Assembly: GCA_030068145.1 (NCBI GenBank)
Contig: JAPJBO010000302.1
Span: forward strand, 104,501 to 168,500
Source: Diplonema papillatum
Lineage: Eukaryota > Euglenozoa > Diplonemea > Diplonemida > Diplonemidae
Direction: 5' to 3'
DNA length: 64,000 nucleotides
Position numbers and translations under genes: made by a program
Notes under the pieces: model-generated
Database searches by the model: none
What the model was told of the DNA's origin: nothing
The model's input: the letters and a program-made list of their open reading frames with translations, nothing else
In this document: one piece after another, positions 40,823-64,000 of the stretch
Layout of the letters: each line of letters opens with the position of its first letter
Numbering within the stretch: position 1 is the first letter of the stretch

Positions 40823-43800
40823 CTGTTTTGTGTTTCCGACGATCCCGAATGGACGTACAGATTGGTGTCTTTCGACCTTTTGTATGCTTGTGGAGTTCAG
40901 CTTAGTACGTGCTTGTGGTGATCGGTGGGGTTCCCAAAAATAAATGTTTTGTGTTATCGTATCTTCGAGCTAGGCTTGTGCATTAGCCAAGTGGCCCATT
41001 CTGTTGCTTTTCCGCTGGGCTCCTGATAGCGGACTCGCGCGCAAACGGACAGTATGACTGCTGTGTTGCGGGCCGCAAATTCATCCAATATTTGCCTGTA
41101 GGTTACCTCACTCTGTCCAAAGATGCGCGTGAGGTTGGCTTCGGGTCCGTAGCTTAGTATATGTCGTTCGTCGCAAGCCGTCAGGACATGATCTGCACTT
41201 CCTCGGTGGTAGCAGCCTTCTACGGCGCACTCGTTGCGGGTTTTGAACGGCATGATGGCTCTACGGGTGAGTGCTTGGAGGAGGTCCGTAGCTCCATGCA
41301 GGTTCCGCAGCGTCCGCAGGGCTTGTGCGCTGAGGCAGCGAGGTGGTACATCGGAAGATAGTCGCTTACGGACCGCGGTGTCGCGACTGTCGGTACGGTT
41401 TCTCCTCACGAAGAGTCCGTTTTCTTCGAGTTGCACCAGGTCACCATTGTCGTCTTCGGTATCGTCTTCTTGCCACCGTTGGCACAGCCTGGCAACGTTG
41501 GCCTTGCGGTAGCACCATTCGACGTTGAATGTGCCGCTGTTTTCGTAAGCGGCGTTTGCTGCGGCGTCTGCTGCGTTGATGTCGTCATTGTCGCTGTGTC
41601 CCCTGGCCCACTGCACATCTGGGAGGGTGCACAGCACCATGGCGACCGGGTCTCCTTTGCGGGGGCTCCTTAACCGGGCGATGGCGCTCATGCTGTCGCT
41701 TCGCGGCTTGGGCTTGACTTCCTTCACAGCAGTCGCTAGAACCATCATCGCGCACAGTTCTGCTTGTGTGCTCGAGCTGATCCTCCCATGGATCTTCGCA
41801 CCGTAGGCCTTGCCGTTGACGCAAATTCCGACAGCGCCTCTGCCTTCTTTTTCCAGGTAGCTTCCATCGGTTGCTACTCTGACGACATCGCCGCTTGCTT
41901 CAGCTTCTCTGAGCGCTCTCTCGGTCCACGTGATGACGTAGGGCTTTCGCACCCTCCGCGGTGGGCGCAGCTCGAATCCGGTTGCTGGGATTCTGCCTTC
42001 CGTCAGGTCGGGGTGGGCGGCCAGGTAAGCCCTTACCTTTTGCTGTTCAGCGAAATCCTTTATCGGTGTCATTCCGTATCCAAAGGAGCAGGCCGGATAT
42101 CCTTAGATTCCATTGCTTCCATGGTGTCTTGGGATGAGCTTTGTGTAAGCGGCTTGCAGCTTGGGGTGCGTCGGGTCGAAGCACTTTGAGACTGCCTGTA
42201 TGGCGAGCGTTGGCAGCGCATAGCGTTTTTTTTGTTTGTGCTGATTTGAAGGTACCAGGGAAAGCCTGCTACCCGGGAGCCAAGCTTCACGTGTTCGGCG
42301 GTACTGCAGAGCCACGGGCCTACGGGTCAAGTGGCTACGGATTTCCAAAACTAAACTTCATGGCGTGGCGCACCTTGGGGCTTGGCGCTTGCGCTGAACA
42401 CAAGCTCATCGAGACGGGCAGCCACAGGGCAGAGCGGACGGGGTTGTGGCACTGTGCTGCCTCCGACTCAAGCTTTGCAAGCTGTGGTTGACAGTCACGT
42501 TCCTGGACCAGGAGCGGCCTTTTTATTTTTCTTCTTCTGTGCTGATTTGACCTGCACGGTCCTCGTTAAACCGCTCCCACCGTTCTTTTTAGCTGTCTCC
42601 AGGGAGGAGGAATTGGTTGTCGCAAAAATAGCAGGCGCCGGAGCACGAGTCCGCGTTCGGACTGCCTTGCAGTACCCCACTGAGAGAATTTGTGTAGAGA
42701 GGAGGTGCAGAAGTGCACGACGAACACAGGTAGTAGTGTTTCTCCTAGTTAACCGTTTGAAATTGCGCACCCTCCCTTTCCCCCAAAGTGACTTCACTGG
42801 GTTGTTTCTCCAACCTTGGTAAGACCTTTTCTTCCATCTCGCAAGTACCAAGTGTTCGGTGATTCGTAAATGACTATTGAACAAGGTTTCCCTTCCTTCC
42901 GCCACCGATTGCACCTACGGACTTTGAAAAGGACCCCGACTGTGCATGCCCCGATCGAGATCGGCTTCGGTAGGAGCAGGCACTCCTCCTCGCCATACCA
43001 GCCGAAGTTGTGCAGGGCTCGCTTCAAAACCGGCGGCGAAGCACGGCTTGGTGGTTCAACGGGGGGCCCTTGTAGCGAAGAGATGACGCGTCGACCGGAT
43101 CGTGAACGCTGGACCGGTGATGGTCGAATCTTGCCAATTCAGCTCAACCCCCGTCTGCGTGGGTGGAAGTATGTTCTGGCGGCGCCATGTCAGGGGAACG
43201 AGGAGACGTTTTCTGACAGAGATGCTGGGTGCTCGTACTGGTTGACGCATCTCGCAGGGGGAGGCCGCGTTCTTTTCAGCGACCCGACAGACGCAGCTTT
43301 GCATGGCAAACATTCTCCGCGGGACAACCAACGTTCTTACAGTTTTACTGGGGACACTAATGCAACAAATTTCCTACTGGGGGTGGTTGCTACGCCCCGA
43401 ATGTCTGAGGGAGCTTCGCACAGCCTACAGGTTGGTTAAATAAAATAAGGGTTCAATGCAAGGTTCAAGTGCCGGCAACCATCTTGGACGGAGCACCAGA
43501 GACAGCTTCGCTGTTGCCGTTGGAGGAAGCAGGCATACTTGATCTTGTTAACCGCGCTGATCTGCTGAGGCTTGAACTCGTCCGAGTGGTACAAAGCCGA
43601 CCAAATAATGTTGTTGTGTGAGTAGACGTTGCCGTCGACGCTGCAGCGTTCATCCGTGTTCACCCAGTCGGTCTTCCCTGGGATGACGAACGGCCCACGG
43701 CAAAACCCTCGCTGGTAGTTGCGGAATTCGATGTTTGTCACAATCGACTTTACGCTGATGTCATAGAACTGGAACCCATCGTGATGCTTCGTGATGAAGT

Positions 43801-53005: not shown

Positions 53006-54250
53006 AGCCAGTCCCTTCCCACTAAAGCTAAAGAAATGCGACAGCGGGGAGGGACCAGTCTCCAACCGACCGTTGCATGCTCGCCTTCCCTCGCAACGCA
53101 CGCTGTGGGACTGGGCGAAGTGCGGGTTCCACGAGGGCAGGCAAGCATCGCTGTGAGCATGTCTCGTACCCGCCACCCTGGCGACACTTGAGCATTCCGG
53201 CTGCTTTCTTGGGCTCTGAAGCAACCGTAGTGGGCACTTCTGGTGGAAGAGTCTGGTCCAACTTTTTGAGCTCCTCCTTTTTCCCATCCGCGGCCTCGCT
53301 GTCGTGTACGTGGTCCAGCCGATGACGCAATTCACACGTAGAAAAATGCAATGAGTGTCGCGTGTCTGCCACAAAAGTCACGCAGGGCGGGCGAGCGAGG
53401 GGTGAAGAGATCCGATGTTTTGTTCTTCTTCTGTTTAGCAACGGTGTTGGTACTTGCCAGAGTAGAACGGCACTCCTCCAACATCTGTGATCGACTCAGC
53501 AACGAAAAGCAACGAAAAAGGGCTTCCGGGCAAGACGATACTTTTGTCCTGACCGTTGGCCAGATTCTGAGCAAACGCTGTGTACGGATGTCCGTCTCGT
53601 CGAAGACGATACAGCTATCCCAACCAAACACAAGTTGTCACCTGAGCAAAAACGCCGTGTGTGCCAGTCTGAGGATGCTGTGTCTCGATAGTAGATAAGA
53701 TGCTTTGGTTGCTGGACTCTCAGGTAAAAAAAACCGCTGCCGACCTGGCTGTATGCTCGGATGAGAGAAGGTCGTCTCGTTCAATCATGTACAAATCTGA
53801 GCGTCCGCGCTTCCTTCCTTGAACTACCCTCTTTCAGAAAAGGTCGGCACGGTAGCGACGACTACGAGAACACATGCAGGTGGGTGGGGTAGACCTGGGG
53901 CTGCGAAGGCGTGATTGCCTGTCCCTCCCAGCTTGTGATGTGTTCTCTAAACTGCTGCGTGAAGAAGGGGCCATTGCTTCGCTGGACGTCTTAGATTTGC
54001 TCCAAATAAAGGCGATACCCCCGTGGTGTGATGCAACTACTAAGGGGCGAACCTGGGCAGAATGTAGGCGGATCCTATTTTCCTGGCAACAAGAAAGAAG
54101 CTGTTTTCGACGCCGGACTTGCTGGACTTCTGACATGCAGCTGCGCAAAAAAAGAATACCTCTTGCAACGAAGCAATGATTTCTGACGGGTTTGAGTTGA
54201 AGCTCGCACGAGATTGTTTTCCTGCTCTGAAGAGATACCGCGGCGGGAAC

Positions 54251-54574
<324 letters not shown>

Positions 54575-56494
54575 GCCTAACGGCCTGCAACGGCCGATAA
54601 GAACGGAACAACGAAGAAAGAGGTAGCAAGTATAACGGAAGCGTGGAGGGGTGCAGTGCTCTCCGGAGGAGTAGAGGGGAGGCGGGGTGTAGCGCGGCGG
54701 CATGCAAAAAAAAGAACAAATTCAACTGCTCTTTCGACCTCCCTTTCTCGGTGTGCCCAGGGGTGGCTTCCGTGTCCATTACTGTTGCTGTCGTTTCTCG
54801 CGGGAGGCCTGGGAAATAACTTAAACTAAGAAGATAATGATGATGTACTGGCAGTTTTCGGCTCCGGTGCTGAGAGTATCGTCAGCAGCGGAGGGACGTA
54901 CGTCCCTTTTTGTTTGTGCGCACTTCCTTCAACCCTGCTTTGTTCATCTAACGGGAGTGAGGATAGTACGCTGCCATCGATCTGTTTTTGTTCTTGACAA
55001 ATTGCATTTGTTAGATACAACAATGGCTTCCCTCGATCCTGAAACAATAATATGTAGTAGCTGCGACGGTACATCTTGATCCTAAAATGCTCCCGTCAGT
55101 GTACAGTATTCGCCTCCTTGTTGCGCTCTGCACTGCGATCGGCTCCCGCCTCTGTATCGCTGCAGAAAAGGAAAAGACGCAAGTCCATCGTGGCCACGAC
55201 ACGGAAAGCAAGGGGGAAGGGAGAGGGGGGGTGGCATGAGCGTGAGCGGTTGTGAGGGAGAGAGGTTGAATATTGAAATCTTCTGAGACTAATATCCTAT
55301 ACGGAAAAAAAAAGACAGGGGTCTCAAATCTTCAGTATAGTGGTAGCAAACCGCTGATTCTCTGTTTACTCTCGTGGGGACCCGAATCGCGGTGTGTGCC
55401 ATGTAGTGACGAGGAGGTTAGCCCCCAAGCCGCGGTGCACAACACGGCTGCAACACGAAGATGCAGCCCTGCTTAGGTGCGCACTCAGCCATCGCAGGGT
55501 CCAGGATCCCGCCACAAACCTCACACATGCTGTCACTCATGGTACGAATGCAGCAACCTTCGCGAGAAAGGTGCGCGCAACCATGAGTGTAGGCGATCTC
55601 ATGCAACAGCTGCGTCAGACGCAGGTTGATCCCAGAGCTCAGGAAAGGTGGCGCTCACCTGTCAGTCTTACATCTGACTGCTGCGTGGGGGGTCGTTGTT
55701 GATTGTTCACGCGTTCAACTTGAACCGCTGCCGACGTTCCTTTTTCAGCTGCAACGAGTATGCCCTCTAAGAAGGCGGCTACTGGCTATCGCAAAAAATA
55801 CATCGCTTTCCGAGGACACGAGCTGCATGCTCTGTGAGAAGGCAGTCGGTGGTTTATGCGTGCCGGTCGATCGTTTTCCCACTTGTTTCACCCTGTGTCA
55901 TTTTCAGGTCAGGACTTTGGATCAACCACCAAACACGCGGGCTAAGTCTGTGAAGACTTCACGTTACCGTGTAGGGCAACCCGCAAAATTGCAGTACTAA
56001 CAGCATCACTTACGGAAGTCTTTCCCAGGAAATAAGTGGAGGCGGGCCGGTACATTTTCAGCTTCAGAGCCGAGGTTGCGGCCCATCCCACTCCACTTCC
56101 TCCAGCAAAGTCTCGTTTTGTGGTCGGCATGTGCTACAGTAGTGGTTTTCCTCATTTTTGCGTGTTTCTGACTTTCGCTTCCTTCAGTCTACCCGTCGCT
56201 GTAAAAACGTTGAGTATGTAGAAACCCCCTAACTGCCGATGATCTTCGGGTGCTTCGCCACATTTCCGTCGTGGCGACTCTGACGCAGCAAGCAAGCGGG
56301 TGGAGTGAGAAAGCGAGAGCAAGCGCAAGGTAGTTTCTTTTTAGAGTTAAAGGTTGCTTGAGATTTTTGGAGGGGGAGAAGCTCTGTTCGCAGTTCGTTG
56401 GTAGTCGGAAAGCATTAATTACCACCGTTCATAGAGCACAGGTCTTGATACGAGGCCACCTTTTTTTTTGCAACCGATTTCAAGGAAGGAAACT

Positions 56495-59006: not shown

Positions 59007-60963
59007 TCAGACGCGGAAGTTGGGAGAGGTGGCCGGCGACGCCACGGGGGAGTAGGTGGTGGCGGAGCTGGCGGCGTCCATGTGGTTGACGAACTCGTTG
59101 AAGCCGATGGACGAAGGCGGGCGCGTCGCCTTGTACGCGACGGCGGCGCACGCCGCGACGCCCACGACCGCGGCCGCCACGGCCACCGGCACGACCCAGC
59201 TGTCGGTGCCCCCATCTTCTTCCGGCTCGTCGGTCGCCTCGGTGGCCCCGAGGCAGATGCCGGTAAAGCACTTCCTCCCGTCGCCGCCGGACCCGCACAC
59301 CGCCCCCTCCTCGAGGCCCCGGCACGCATTCCGCGCTTCTTCCTCGCTTTCCTCAGGCGAAAGCCCGGCAGGGCTCTCGGTCGCGTTGCTGGGCCCGGCA
59401 GGCGCCCCCGTCTCGCCAGGAGCCGGGGCGCTCGTTGCGGGTGCTCTCGTCTCGCCAGGAGCCGGGGCGCTCGTTGCGGGTGCTCTCGTCTCGCCAGGAG
59501 CCGGGGCGCTCGTTGCGGGTGCTCTCGTCTCGCCGGGAGCCGGGGTGCTCGTTGCGGGTGCCGCAGTCGCGGGCGGCAAAGTCGCGCCAGGGGACGCTGC
59601 CGTCGCAGGTGCGGGCGGGGACGGCGCCTGGGTCGGCTCCGCCGGCGCGGACGTGGCAGGGGATGCTGTGGGCGGCGTGGTGGTACTGACGCCAGTCGGC
59701 GCCTCGGTTGGCATTGTTGGCGCTGATGTGTCGGGGGATGCTGTGGGTGACGCAGTAGTCATGACACTGGTTGGCGCCGAGGTTGGCATCGTTGGTGCTG
59801 ACGTGTCAGGCGATGCTGTTGAAGGAGACATGGTGGTCTTGACTACAGTTGGTGCCTCGGTTGGCATTGTTGGCGCTGGTGTGTCAGGCGATGCTGTAGA
59901 AGGAGACATAGTGGTCTTGACGCCAGGTGCTGACGTGTCAGGGAACGCCGTCGGAGGTGACACGGTGTCCGGAGCCTTGGTTACGGGAGCTGGCGCGGTA
60001 GTCGGCGCTGCTGTGGTAGGCGCCGCGGTAGACGGGGCCGCCGTGTCTGGGGCGCCAGTCGGCGGGCTGGCCGGTGCCAGCGAGTCCGGAGCTACAGTGG
60101 GCGAGACAGGGCAACCCCCGGTCCACGCCGGGATTTTTTCCTGCGGCTTCGTCTTGCAGAACCCCTTCGAGTCAGCCGTGCAGTCCGCGACCACGTCTAT
60201 GAGGAACGAATCCTCCACATCGTAGATCCACGCGCCTCCTCTTTCATACCGGTCGTTGGCCAGCGCCACGGGCATCAACGGCGCCAGGTACAGTGTCTTC
60301 CCATCGAAATAGTACTGCTCCCTCGGATTCGCCCACACGTCGTCGAGGCTTGCAGCGAGGGTCATCGTGACGTCGTACTGTTTTCCCCACTTGTAGTACC
60401 CTTTGATCGCGAACTTCGTCCCCGACGGGTAGTTCGTCGCCAGCCGCACCATCGAGCCTCCCGGCACCTGCGCCGGGATCACCCGCAACGTCTTCGGTGC
60501 ACCGCCGTCGACCCACATCCACCAGCCGGTGCCGGTAATGCCGGTGATCCCGGCGTTGGCGGTTATGGCTGTGGAACGCTTCTCGTCCCCGTAATCAGCG
60601 CCGTGCCCCCACAGTGCAACGTAGCCCACGTTGCACGCGGTCCAGTCGGTTCCTGTGTTGTCTCCACACTTCGACTCAGTGAGACCGCCGTTCGGGTACG
60701 TGATGTCAGGAGTCAAGACTTTGATGTGCGCGACTTCCCTCTCAGGGATACCGGGCGGTGCCTTCGGGCAGAGCCACACTTGCCAGTCGTCGGAAAACCG
60801 GCAGTCGTCGCAGACTTGCCACCAGTTCAAATTCGAGCCCACAATTGTGGGGCGTCCCTCGAGGGTCGCAGACCCGTCGAAGTCGATGAAGTTGAACATG
60901 CGCGAGGCGCCGGTGCCCGCGACCTTGAAACTAACCAGCAGCTCCTTGTCGACGTTCGTGTAC
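59007..60963 (-). CDS. Gene E exon 4: G8-family C-terminal exon (5'-partial gene)
   Basis: 1957 nt; acceptor AACAG before GTACACG, phase 2 as in B, C and D. Exons 1-3 must lie beyond the right edge. The ectodomain (FDGSATLEGRPTIVGS) carries its own variants, for example GGLTESKCGDNTGTDW and WWMWVDGGAPKT. A stalk of about 260 residues follows, built of about four 13-residue APATSAPAPGETR units and several longer SPDTSAPTMPTEAP-type units. Then come the four-Cys motif (ACRGLEEGAVCGSGG), a membrane helix (WVVPVAVAAAVVGVAACAAVAY) and a tail ending ATSPNFRV. Higher GC and a different stalk repeat set E apart from C and D. Confidence 0.85.
59395..59560 (-). repeat. Coding 39-bp repeat in gene E stalk
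   Basis: The segment CTCGTCTCGCCAGGAGCCGG recurs every 39 bp, about four times, each unit encoding 13 residues (APAPGETRAPATS). The repeat differs in length and sequence from the 66-bp units of gene D. Confidence 0.85.
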
Positions 60964-61056
60964 CTGTTTTTCGATTCGAGGTCCAAAAGCCCGCGCTTGC
61001 TTTATCCTAACTATGGTTAGGAGACAAGAATTTTGAAGGTGATACCGTAAGCGGGT

Positions 61057-61132
61057 TTAATACGAAACGTGTAAATGTTTCTTAGCTACTTTTTTGGCCA
61101 AAGTGTTTCTTAATTAACACGTTTCGTACTAA
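61057..61132. repeat. Inverted repeat downstream of the transposase ORF
   Basis: Arms 61057-61072 and 61117-61132 pair at 15 of 16 positions around ACGAAACGTGT. It lies 137 bp past the transposase stop and could be a subterminal motif of that transposon; the other transposon end is outside the window. Confidence 0.55.
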
Positions 61133-61268
61133 AAACAAGGGGTCTGACGTACTTAGTGAAATTTGAAAACCCCATGATGATCCCCCATTTTGGTTCCCGA
61201 CAATCTTTGGTGTATCGAGCCTTTGAGCAGGAAAAACGTACCGCGGTCAGAGTATTAGCGACAAGACA

Positions 61269-63914
61269 TCACGATGACAGCAATTGCAGAGCGTTCTGGC
61301 ACTTGTGAATGAAGACGACAGGCGTGGGCGGGATCACCAACGGCTCTGGGATGCAGTCTGTGAACTGCAGCGCCGCAAACAAGGAATGGTAACCGCAGCT
61401 CCAATCGTCTTGTTGACATCCTCGAGCGTCCGTCTCAATGAACCAAGAGTCGGTGTCGGCGGAAAAGACCGTTGCAAGGTGGCTGACTATCTTGCTTCCG
61501 CAAAAGTCAGAAAGCGAGCAAGATACAACGCATCTTCGGAGCGACCGGTCGGTTGTTACAAGCATCCAGTGCCAACCACGAGTTCCTGACACGCTAGTGT
61601 TTACGAAGGTGTTCATTAGGCGGGCACGCGTCAGTGATGACAGGGTAAGCCGGTCGTATGGAAGGGCAGCGCAAGCAAAGGCGGAGTTGTCCTTAAAGAA
61701 GGAGTAAAGCCTCTCCAGGTGATTGCCATCCAGCTTCTTCTCGTGCTCGCCAGCCCCAAGACTAGCATGAACCGCATCCACCTCCACAGCAACGCATTCA
61801 TCGTTTGCCAGTTCTTCAAGCTCTTGGTCAAAATCAGCGAAGTCAGAATCGTTGATGCAATCTGCGCATTCACTCAGTACGAGACATTCATTGAAATTGC
61901 GAAGGAGTTCGGCGAGAACGTTGTCCCCGCAACCGGTGGCCTGGGGGCTGTCTTCAACGAAACCTTGGTCGGCTCCATCTCCTGTTGGATCGGAAACTTT
62001 CTCTTCCAGTAAATTTGCGTCACTCAACCCGGTCACCACGAAACTCGCCCGGATGCTCTCGGGTTTCACTTTCGACAACGCCGTCTTTAGCCACTTCAGA
62101 TGTCGTCTACGCAGAGATTTTGCGCGGAGGTCGAGACGCGCCATCATCTTCAGCATCTCACCTTCCACAACAGACGTGTGTTCTTCAGCAGACACGGTGA
62201 CAAGGGAAGCAAAATGAGCCCCGTCGAACAAGACAACCAGTGAGCTTTGCCGGCACCCGGACTTCAAGTGTTCAGCAGCAGAGAAGGTGCACGTTTCGTG
62301 CAAGCGCACTTTCACCCCAAATAGACGCAGCACTACTTCATTGAGAACGAGCGCGACTAATACATCAAGATGATGTTTTTCTTCAAATTCAGACGACGCG
62401 GGGGTCTTCGCAAATTCGGCTATCAATTCTACAATTGTCGCACGAGTCCTTGTGACGTTGGTGTCGCTTAATGCAGCGAGATCGGCTTCTGTGCACTTGC
62501 TGAGCAGTTGCTTAGCTGTTTCATGCGTTGGTTTATCGCTGGCCTCCTGAACGCACTTTCCGCTGGCAGCCAGCCAGATGCTTTGATAGGCGAACCACCC
62601 ACAAGCGTGCGCCTCTTGCTGTCTCCACCATTCCGGAGCGAAGTGCAGGTCGCCAGCTGCCCCTGCTGCTTCGGACAACGAGACCGTCATACTGCTACGC
62701 TCCCCGAGACTGTCGTAGAGGATGACACTGTGCTTCGTCTTTGAGTGCGCGACTTCACGAAAGAGCACGGGTGTGGGGACAACGGATACACTTTGAAGAC
62801 GTTGGATGTCCTCAGCAGCGTCACCGTCGTTAACACTCTCCACGTCTTTTGTAGCCTTCTTATGCTTCTTGTCTTTCTTGTATTTTTTGTTCTTCATCAG
62901 GTTCTTCGCGTTCTTTGCATTTGCTTGTTTCATCAACTTGAGCACACTGTCGCTGTACCAAGTTGAGTACTCGTCCCGCAAGCTCCGCTTCAGAACACCG
63001 TTTAGACCAACATCCAACGGCTGCAACCTTCCTGTCCAGCCAGCCGGAATGCAGACTGTTGCGATGCGATTGTGCACAAGTAGTTCCTTGATACTTTGTG
63101 TGTGCTGGGCAGAGAAACGATCGAGGATAAGGAGGCCCCACTCTGTCTCTCCTCTCCGTGTGTTCATCGCCGGCAGCAGCACGTCATTTACCCACACCTT
63201 CGTGGTTTGTTCGTTTGCCCATCTGTTAGGATTGGCGACAAAAGACCACCCGTCTGGTCTTTTTGCCTCCGGTGGAAGAACCCTGCTGGTTTTCCCGCCG
63301 TAGATCAACTGCGGGGGTAGCAGCTCCCCTGTTGCAAAGGCCGCAAACAGACCTGTGATCGACCGTTTGTCGTTCAGGTTTGTTAGGGCCACTCGCTTGC
63401 TGCCCACCGGCGCGTAGGTCTTCTTGGGTGCTGGCAGGAGTTGCAACAGTGTGTGGTCGGCGTTTACTACCCTTTCTAAGGGGATGTCGTGGAGCTTCCT
63501 TGCACTCTGTACTTCTGCAACGAATTCTGCACGAGCTTCCAGGAAGGGTCGCGTTGTGGTGGCCACTGCTGTTGTTGCAGCTCTCATGGACCAGCCCAAC
63601 CGTCGCATCCATGCACGCGCCCACTCCTTGTTCAGCGTGGTGGCGTCGTGAATGCGCTCGCTTTCATCACTAGCTTTCACCATGCCTCTAGCTGTTGCTG
63701 ACACGGTTTGTGCCGTCACAGCGCCACCTGATGACCTAGCAGAGCGGATGATGCTGAGCACCTTGTTTTCTTCTGTGGGTGACAGTGTGCACTTCCTCCC
63801 TCGTTTGACTTCCCGGAAATGGCTCTCGCTTTCCTCAACATGCAGCCCCATCTTCCGCTTTGCTACGCGCTCTTGTATTGCTTCTTTGTATTCGGAAAAG
63901 GCTCGAGACGCCAT
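61269..63914 (-). CDS. pogo-like DDE transposase fused to two Ulp1-like cysteine-protease cores
   Basis: 881 aa from the ATG at 63912-63914 (MASRAFSEYKEA); an upstream extension would need a GTG start. Residues about 40-80 look like a helix-turn-helix and 95-115 (WARAWMRRLGW) like the CENP-B/Tigger DNA-binding domain. The catalytic triad is D153 (VNADHT), D265 (LLILDRFSA) and D301 (LQPLDVG), DD35D spacing. A Lys-rich linker lies at 329-357. The first protease-like core has YDSLG with D401 and Q432-x5-C438-G but no His-Trp at the expected place. The second has H782-W, Cys799 where Asp is expected, and Q834-x5-C840-G. The span 438-567 (ACGWFAYQSIW to FDGAHFASLV) could alternatively be OTU-like. 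It probably belongs to an autonomous element in gene E intron 3, same orientation as the gene. Fully open, so young. Confidence 0.8.
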   Translation of the reverse strand: MASRAFSEYKEAIQERVAKRKMGLHVEESESHFREVKRGRKCTLSPTEENKVLSIIRSARSSGGAVTAQTVSATARGMVKASDESERIHDATTLNKEWARAWMRRLGWSMRAATTAVATTTRPFLEARAEFVAEVQSARKLHDIPLERVVNADHTLLQLLPAPKKTYAPVGSKRVALTNLNDKRSITGLFAAFATGELLPPQLIYGGKTSRVLPPEAKRPDGWSFVANPNRWANEQTTKVWVNDVLLPAMNTRRGETEWGLLILDRFSAQHTQSIKELLVHNRIATVCIPAGWTGRLQPLDVGLNGVLKRSLRDEYSTWYSDSVLKLMKQANAKNAKNLMKNKKYKKDKKHKKATKDVESVNDGDAAEDIQRLQSVSVVPTPVLFREVAHSKTKHSVILYDSLGERSSMTVSLSEAAGAAGDLHFAPEWWRQQEAHACGWFAYQSIWLAASGKCVQEASDKPTHETAKQLLSKCTEADLAALSDTNVTRTRATIVELIAEFAKTPASSEFEEKHHLDVLVALVLNEVVLRLFGVKVRLHETCTFSAAEHLKSGCRQSSLVVLFDGAHFASLVTVSAEEHTSVVEGEMLKMMARLDLRAKSLRRRHLKWLKTALSKVKPESIRASFVVTGLSDANLLEEKVSDPTGDGADQGFVEDSPQATGCGDNVLAELLRNFNECLVLSECADCINDSDFADFDQELEELANDECVAVEVDAVHASLGAGEHEKKLDGNHLERLYSFFKDNSAFACAALPYDRLTLSSLTRARLMNTFVNTSVSGTRGWHWMLVTTDRSLRRCVVSCSLSDFCGSKIVSHLATVFSADTDSWFIETDARGCQQDDWSCGYHSLFAALQFTDCIPEPLVIPPTPVVFIHKCQNALQLLSS

Positions 63915-64000
63915 GGTTTGGTTGAGCTGTTTCGTATGTCCTTGGAGAGGACTGTTCCACCACTTGACAGTGTCTCGCACCCCCTTTTCTGCAACAATCT

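Follow-up and report, generated by a model that had tools for sequence, protein, structure and literature searches.

A pogo-type transposase of Diplonema papillatum carrying two cysteine-protease-like segments, probably of different types

Domains of the ubiquitin and SUMO protease type recur in transposons that are otherwise unrelated. In the Ginger1 elements a given transposase carries an OTU or an Ulp1 domain, "but not both", and the authors suggest, in the part of their report available to us, that these domains may act on DNA repair in transposition (PMC2836005). Ulp1-bearing Vandal elements have been tied to hypomethylation and to evasion of silencing in a review whose available sections give the function of the Ulp1 part as unknown (PMC13317346). 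The main texts of two surveys of the pogo superfamily contain none of the words 'Ulp1', 'protease' and 'peptidase' (PMC7386202, PMC7325037), and full-text searches confined to open-licence papers in PMC found no OTU or Ulp1 domain reported in a pogo element. Here, we describe a pogo-type element, termed family A, at the end of a stretch of 64,000 nucleotides of Diplonema papillatum (contig JAPJBO010000302.1, G000:C302:104501-168500 in our numbering; hereafter the window). In its transposase frame a preliminary description had noticed two segments, here called core 1 and core 2, and had taken both for halves of Ulp1/C48 proteases with complementary losses.

The reading that we favour, with moderate confidence, is that a pogo transposase has gained two different cysteine-protease-like modules, one OTU-like and one of clan CE, with the roles proposed below; the fold class of each is a putative assignment from remote profile matches. 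The presence of two cysteine-protease-like segments in one frame is confirmed, whereas their common assignment to Ulp1/C48 is not, and the supposed complementary losses within one type of protease are probably better described as two different types.

One transposase backbone, in fact, carries two separable modules. A DDE_1 search of the genome (271 Mb, 2910 contigs), in which 150 of 175 candidates were scored, returned several pogo families, and among ten places that were read (L034-L043) three families share the backbone of family A: B (L034), C (L035, its true end taken from L060) and D (L036). Families B and C hold only the C-terminal domain, core 2, without core 1; family D holds only the inner domain, core 1, without core 2; and family A has both. 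In the four-family alignment, core 1 follows the DDE region and precedes a segment common to A-D, [KR]-[SR]-x-R-x-x-H-x-x-W-L, after which core 2 comes. The element ends could be located on both sides in C and D, as (TA)CCGT..., and on the right side in B. The other pogo frames read (L037-L040, L042) gave no sign of either core. More than 15 further subfamilies were considered and rejected, 19 of those loci proving, when read, to be 17 family A fragments and two of family C. As for the pogo families outside this group, the transposases of L037 and L039 (families E/G) and of L038 (family F) end in Cys-rich tails, not in protease-like ones, the tail of L037 being weakly zinc-ribbon- or IBR-like.

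The family A frame, which runs on the minus strand from 63914 to 61269, stays open up to the window end, and its coding start lies upstream, outside the window. Residues are numbered here in the 881-codon frame from the Met that the preliminary description took as the start; this Met is internal, and the full protein, counted from the first Met at computed position 64181, is 970 residues long. The Pfam model DDE_1 matches residues 187-340 (E-value 1e-16), as expected of a pogo transposase, and 35 residues separate D265 from D301, so that the earlier reading of a one-frame DD35D transposase holds; D153, D265, D301 and all of the other residues named in it were found at their numbers. At the N-terminus, where a CENP-B/Tc5-type helix-turn-helix (HTH) was looked for, no Pfam HTH was listed for family A; HTH_Tnp_Tc5 appears weakly in other pogo families only (L037, E 0.017; L038, E 0.0038, both under the curated cut-off). 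The profile search that had been proposed recovered DDE_1; the HTH, OTU and Peptidase_C48 models of Pfam were not listed for family A.

This frame encodes the transposase of a multi-copy cut-and-paste element of the pogo superfamily. The genome holds at least 54 matches to the 881-residue protein, 31 of which cover residues 1-881, all but one of these (30/31) being free of stops. In 20 family A copies, fetched from the best-scoring matches (L014-L033), agreement breaks off sharply at CCGTAAGCGGGTTTAATA... on either side. Both ends were located by a strict pattern in 14 of the 20, with TA on both flanks in all 14; in the remaining six, four showed the right end only, with TA, one the left end only, with TA, and L022 the left end only, with AG. 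Two empty sites were also found: the joined flanks of L015 match positions 19439-19315 of the window with 90% identity and a single clean TA at the join, and those of L033 match L030:785-903 with 91% identity, with a gap and a mismatch at the TA. The terminal inverted repeats (TIRs) and the TA target-site duplication expected of the pogo superfamily are both present in family A; full-length copies with terminal repeats (29 bp) and a TA site, which the preliminary description had suggested searching for, do exist. The window's copy is 3366 bp long, with its 5' end outside the window, and the inverted ACGAAACGTG-like motifs at and near its end are possibly transposase-binding repeats. The same 11 key residues are found in 20/20 fetched copies.

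Across 15 full copies there are no differences in 2600 interior columns, and a mean pairwise difference of 0.73% in 769 terminal columns; the stretch without variation corresponds to element positions of about 350-2950 (L014-L033). The 100% identity of the copies was not accepted as proof of a very recent burst, given the contrast between the terminal columns and the interior. The uniformity of the interior is probably an artefact of pooled assembly that hides the state of single copies, and the intactness and age of each single copy are therefore uncertain.

Core 1 has the motifs D401-S-L, Q432-x5-C438-G and H567-F568, the His lying 129 residues after the Cys, and between families A and D, at 38% identity, D401, Q432, C438 and H567 are invariant. 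The view that core 1 is devoid of a His is therefore no longer tenable, since it has its own H567-F568 downstream of the Cys, conserved in D. In A20 the catalytic residues follow the order Asp-Cys-His, and the same order is found in core 1 (D401, C438, H567), conserved in both families. A profile of core 1 from A and D searched against the PDB gave OTUD7B (Cezanne) as the top match (E 0.055), followed by the ribosomal protein eL13 (E 0.65), and a profile of its C-terminal half gave OTUD7B only at E<=10, in two matches (E 0.0081 and 0.0088), the alignment at the catalytic-His motif being GCRQSSLVVLFDGAHFASLV versus QCHRSPLVLAYDQAHFSALV. With hhalign, core 1 scored 39.1 against the His segment of A20/Cezanne (probability 87.5, 26 columns), the best of 150 column shuffles reaching 25.3, and 13.4 against Ulp1+SENP1 of clan CE (probability 0.3), where the alignment covers 12 residues around the Cys; this last comparison had no shuffle control of its own, and for each of the other two pairs the median score of the shuffles was 11.1. 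On these two scores, a broken Ulp1 domain was rejected for core 1. A plain hidden Markov model (HMM) of the OTU segment ranked family D at the top of all sequences, with A next in a test with 2000 shuffles; the A20/Cezanne-type catalytic-His motif is present in core 1, weakly so for family A alone with the plain HMM. Core 1 is probably OTU-like, though not a proven member of the OTU family, and could be catalytic, with the four expected residues kept.

Core 2 aligns among A, B and C through the HW, the acid position, the Q and CGY, with identities to A of 38% for B and 27-28% for C. Its motifs in A are H782-W, C799 at the place of Asp and Q834-x5-C840-G, the acid place reading D-P-L in B, D-S-L in C and C-S-L in A. 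The spacing from His to the acid place is 17 in A, B, yeast Ulp1 and adenovirus protease, and 20 in C, where Gln and Cys are also one residue further apart; the complete arrangement of His, acid 17 residues later and Gln-x5-Cys is found in B and not in A, and C has all four residues with altered spacing. The Cys at the Asp position, noted earlier for family A, is a genuine departure, given the Asp of B and C. Of 17 fragments of family A from other places in the genome, 15 read SCSL at this site, one reads SRSL and the last is broken there, and because 15/17 carry this same SCSL, the Cys is the state of the family. A core 2 profile against the PDB placed 4piq and 4wx4 at the top (E 0.0012), both entitled 'Protease', which we take to be adenovirus proteases, and 1avp (adenain) at E 0.041; in a rerun with a fuller family C the adenovirus proteases had E 0.0015 and 0.046. 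XopD came later in the ranking (E about 1), separated from these by unrelated proteins. With hhalign, core 2 scored 21.5 against Ulp1+SENP1, 74 columns being in register through HW, the Asp place and Q-x5-CG, above all of 150 column shuffles (best 17.7). Core 2 appears clan-CE-like; in B and C it is probably catalytic, and in A probably impaired or a binding module.

Chance does not account for the core motifs: among 100,000 shuffled versions of residues 350-881, 28 had at least two Q-x5-C-G, 45 had DSL 20-50 residues ahead of Q-x5-C-G, and 2 had HW-x16-S-L ahead of Q-x5-C-G. General searches added little: phmmer with the 881-residue frame against the PDB gave a single match (E 1.3), taken as chance; scans of the tail with Pfam, NCBIfam and PHROGs gave none, or weak matches without bearing; no relatives were found in phage, viral-contig and genome-contig collections; and a degenerate LQPLDV pattern in viral contigs occurred at 5 loci, none of which had a protein match better than E 0.5.

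Several observations weigh against these assignments. With 4000 shuffles, the plain OTU HMM placed family A (9.7 bits) under one shuffle (11.5), D still being first; for single stretches the E-values of OTUD7B are weaker, 0.097 with the whole-domain profile and 0.023 with the C-terminal half, and the match spans just 26-30 residues. The usual motif around the catalytic Cys of OTU proteases is Asp-Gly-Asn-Cys, and core 1 lacks an Asp-Gly before its Cys, having HACGW at that place; furthermore, it is known from two families only, A and D. As to core 2, family A is without the Asp, with Cys in 20/20 copies read; the best single stretch of an adenovirus protease has E 0.14, the hhalign probability against Ulp1+SENP1 is just 5.4, and a plain two-sequence HMM of Ulp1+SENP1 fails to raise core 2 above 4000 shuffles. 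OTU (PF02338) is absent from the Pfam listing of core 1 in both A and D, and Peptidase_C48 (PF02902) from that of families A-D, the filters of the listing dropping most matches above E 0.1, and of seven Peptidase_C48 matches listed in the genome none is at a family A place. AlphaFold2 gave predicted local distance difference test (pLDDT) values of 33.8 for residues 350-881 and 35.1 for core 1, with no fold seen.

Table 1. Positions in the window of the features of the family A element.
Feature	Position	Strand	Remarks
pogo-type element, family A	61045..64000, past window end to computed 64410	-	boundaries from 20 copies
TA target-site duplication, 3' end of element	61043..61044	.	read directly
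3' TIR, 29 bp	61045..61073	-	1 mismatch against the 5' TIR, which is outside the window
ACGAAACGTG-like motif copies, inverted, terminal/subterminal	61056..61133	.	inverted repeat; similar motifs at 5' ends of copies
Part of transposase frame	61269..63914	-	881 codons from internal Met; full frame starts outside window
DDE catalytic domain, residues 153-340	62895..63458	-	D153, D265, D301
Core 1, residues 377-585, putative A20/Cezanne-type OTU-like	62160..62786	-	D401, Q432, C438, H567
Conserved pogo C-terminal segment, residues 599-630	62025..62120	-	common to all four families; after core 1
Core 2, residues 705-881, putative clan-CE-like (adenain/Ulp1)	61272..61802	-	H782, C799, Q834, C840

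Other explanations of the two segments have to be weighed against this evidence. The one put forward originally, two complementarily broken Ulp1/C48 domains that form one composite site of D401, C438 or C840, and H782, draws on the Q-x5-C-G present in both cores and on the D-S-L of core 1, but we regard it as highly improbable: the similarity of core 1 to clan CE is confined to the few residues and the low score given above, core 1 has a conserved His of its own, and B, C and D each hold one segment. Since these sister families carry one segment alone, neither segment depends on the other, and no composite site has to be assumed. It is unlikely, too, that both are pseudoproteases, serving only as readers of ubiquitin-like tags and steering the transposase to tagged chromatin. 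The Cys in place of Asp in core 2 of every family A copy fetched, and the absence of both domains from the Pfam listing, would suit such readers, but core 1 retains its Cys, His, Gln and Asp in two families as distant as A and D, and core 2 does so in families B and C.

Adenovirus proteases cut viral precursors, and among solved structures they match core 2 best; with both domains in cis, in one frame, the segments might then be self-processing, adenain-like proteases that cut the 970-residue precursor and free a DNA-cutting transposase. We consider this quite improbable, since a cut at core 1 would part the conserved pogo segment from the DDE domain, and core 2 of family A has no acid residue. 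It is, finally, very unlikely that the tail is open by accident or is a functionless piece captured from the host. Transposons do capture gene pieces in plants, according to the available part of PMC13317346, but the tail is open in nearly all full-span matches (subject to the caveat of pooled assembly), no open frame of 512 codons, where some 22 stops would be expected, arose in 2000 shuffles of the bases, and at the interfamily identities reported for core 1 (A-D) and core 2 (A-B, A-C) most candidate catalytic residues are kept.

If a pogo transposase has indeed gained two different modules, the OTU-like domain would have been inserted between the DDE domain and the conserved pogo C-terminal segment, and the clan-CE (adenain/Ulp1-like) domain appended behind that segment. 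The former might be a working deubiquitinase that strips ubiquitin off the transposase itself, or, at the donor site or the target site, off chromatin and repair proteins, and this removal would keep the transposase alive or block silencing; core 2 of family A, having lost its Asp, would work more slowly or do no more than bind ubiquitin-like tags. The likeliest use of the modules would be to remove or recognise ubiquitin-like tags on transposase or chromatin, and the moving element may in this way interfere with the protein-tagging system of its host; the de-ubiquitin/SUMO-like role proposed at the outset remains plausible. A bolder version, which we hold only as a tentative possibility, is that the pogo elements of one lineage have repeatedly and independently taken up two unrelated modules at fixed places, family A combining an active OTU deubiquitinase with a clan-CE tag reader in a dual module directed against the host.

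Some observations concern the surroundings of the element and related sequences in the genome. The element is situated directly upstream of a CEMIP_X-like exon (59010-60970), probably within an intron, and several minus-strand frames at 4669-61001 are repeated pieces of genes of the CEMIP/G8 type. In a paralogous gene copy, a minus-strand frame at 40957-42102, directly upstream of the same exon, has a weak RNase_H match (E 2e-4, under the curated cut-off) and is maybe another mobile-element insert in the corresponding place of the gene; a long trinucleotide repeat, with several frames open, lies at 54214-54600. L043 (G000:C1033:14600-19600) has a family A DDE piece (RVLPPEAKRPDGW...NAKNAKS) in frame within a Ser-rich open frame of 2096 codons, and is possibly a chimera of host gene and transposase. 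A genome search with Pfam OTU gave matches at the 150 places scored out of 656 candidates, many of them in frames of 1500-2100 codons, and one such place that was read, L070 (G000:C840:34300-37400), also has Exo_endo_phos, as in a non-long terminal repeat (non-LTR) retroelement; OTU-type domains are thus apparently carried by a different class of mobile element as well in this genome.

The comparison with known proteases and elements places family A as follows. At the catalytic His, OTUD7B (PDB 5lrw) and family A share C-x-x-S-[SP]-L-x3-[FY]-x3-H-F-x-[SA]-L-V, as does D but for an F at the place of the aromatic choice; with the A20/Cezanne OTUs, core 1 shares the order of catalytic residues, whereas its Cys motif differs and the alignment is short. 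The adenovirus protease (4piq) and Ulp1 (1euv) have HW, an acid 17 residues later and Q...C-G, in the order seen in core 2, which differs from clan CE in the Cys of family A at the acid place, the likeness being remote and absent from the Pfam listing. As an element, family A resembles the pogo superfamily in its DDE_1 domain, DD35D motif, TA duplication and short TIRs (PMC7386202, PMC7325037), and the length of its protein falls inside the range of 300-977 residues given for pogo in the available part of PMC7386202; fusions with domains of this kind are now extended to that superfamily. Four sister families on one backbone in one genome, three of them with either the inner or the C-terminal domain alone and one with both, form a natural domain-swap series, which lets the share of each domain in transposition or in escape from silencing be measured directly. 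The oomycete CryptonF and CryptonS are likewise eukaryotic transposons with an Ulp1-related C48 peptidase, but use a tyrosine recombinase instead of a DDE enzyme, the peptidase of CryptonS is an additional protein, and the accessible text does not mention an OTU-like domain (PMC3212892). Similarly, the Mutator/Vandal elements (KIU) have an Ulp1-like domain, but belong to the Mutator superfamily and carry it in a separate gene, with no OTU-like domain mentioned in the sections available (PMC13317346). Ginger1, too, has TIRs and encodes a single protein in which a DDE transposase is joined to an OTU or an Ulp1 domain, but its DDE domain is of the Gypsy-integrase type and the additional domains are C-terminal, whereas in family A one of them precedes a conserved segment of the transposase; an OTU-like and an Ulp1-like segment in a single transposase, as family A appears to have, is the combination that the Ginger1 authors, in the part of their report available, did not see in their elements (PMC2836005).

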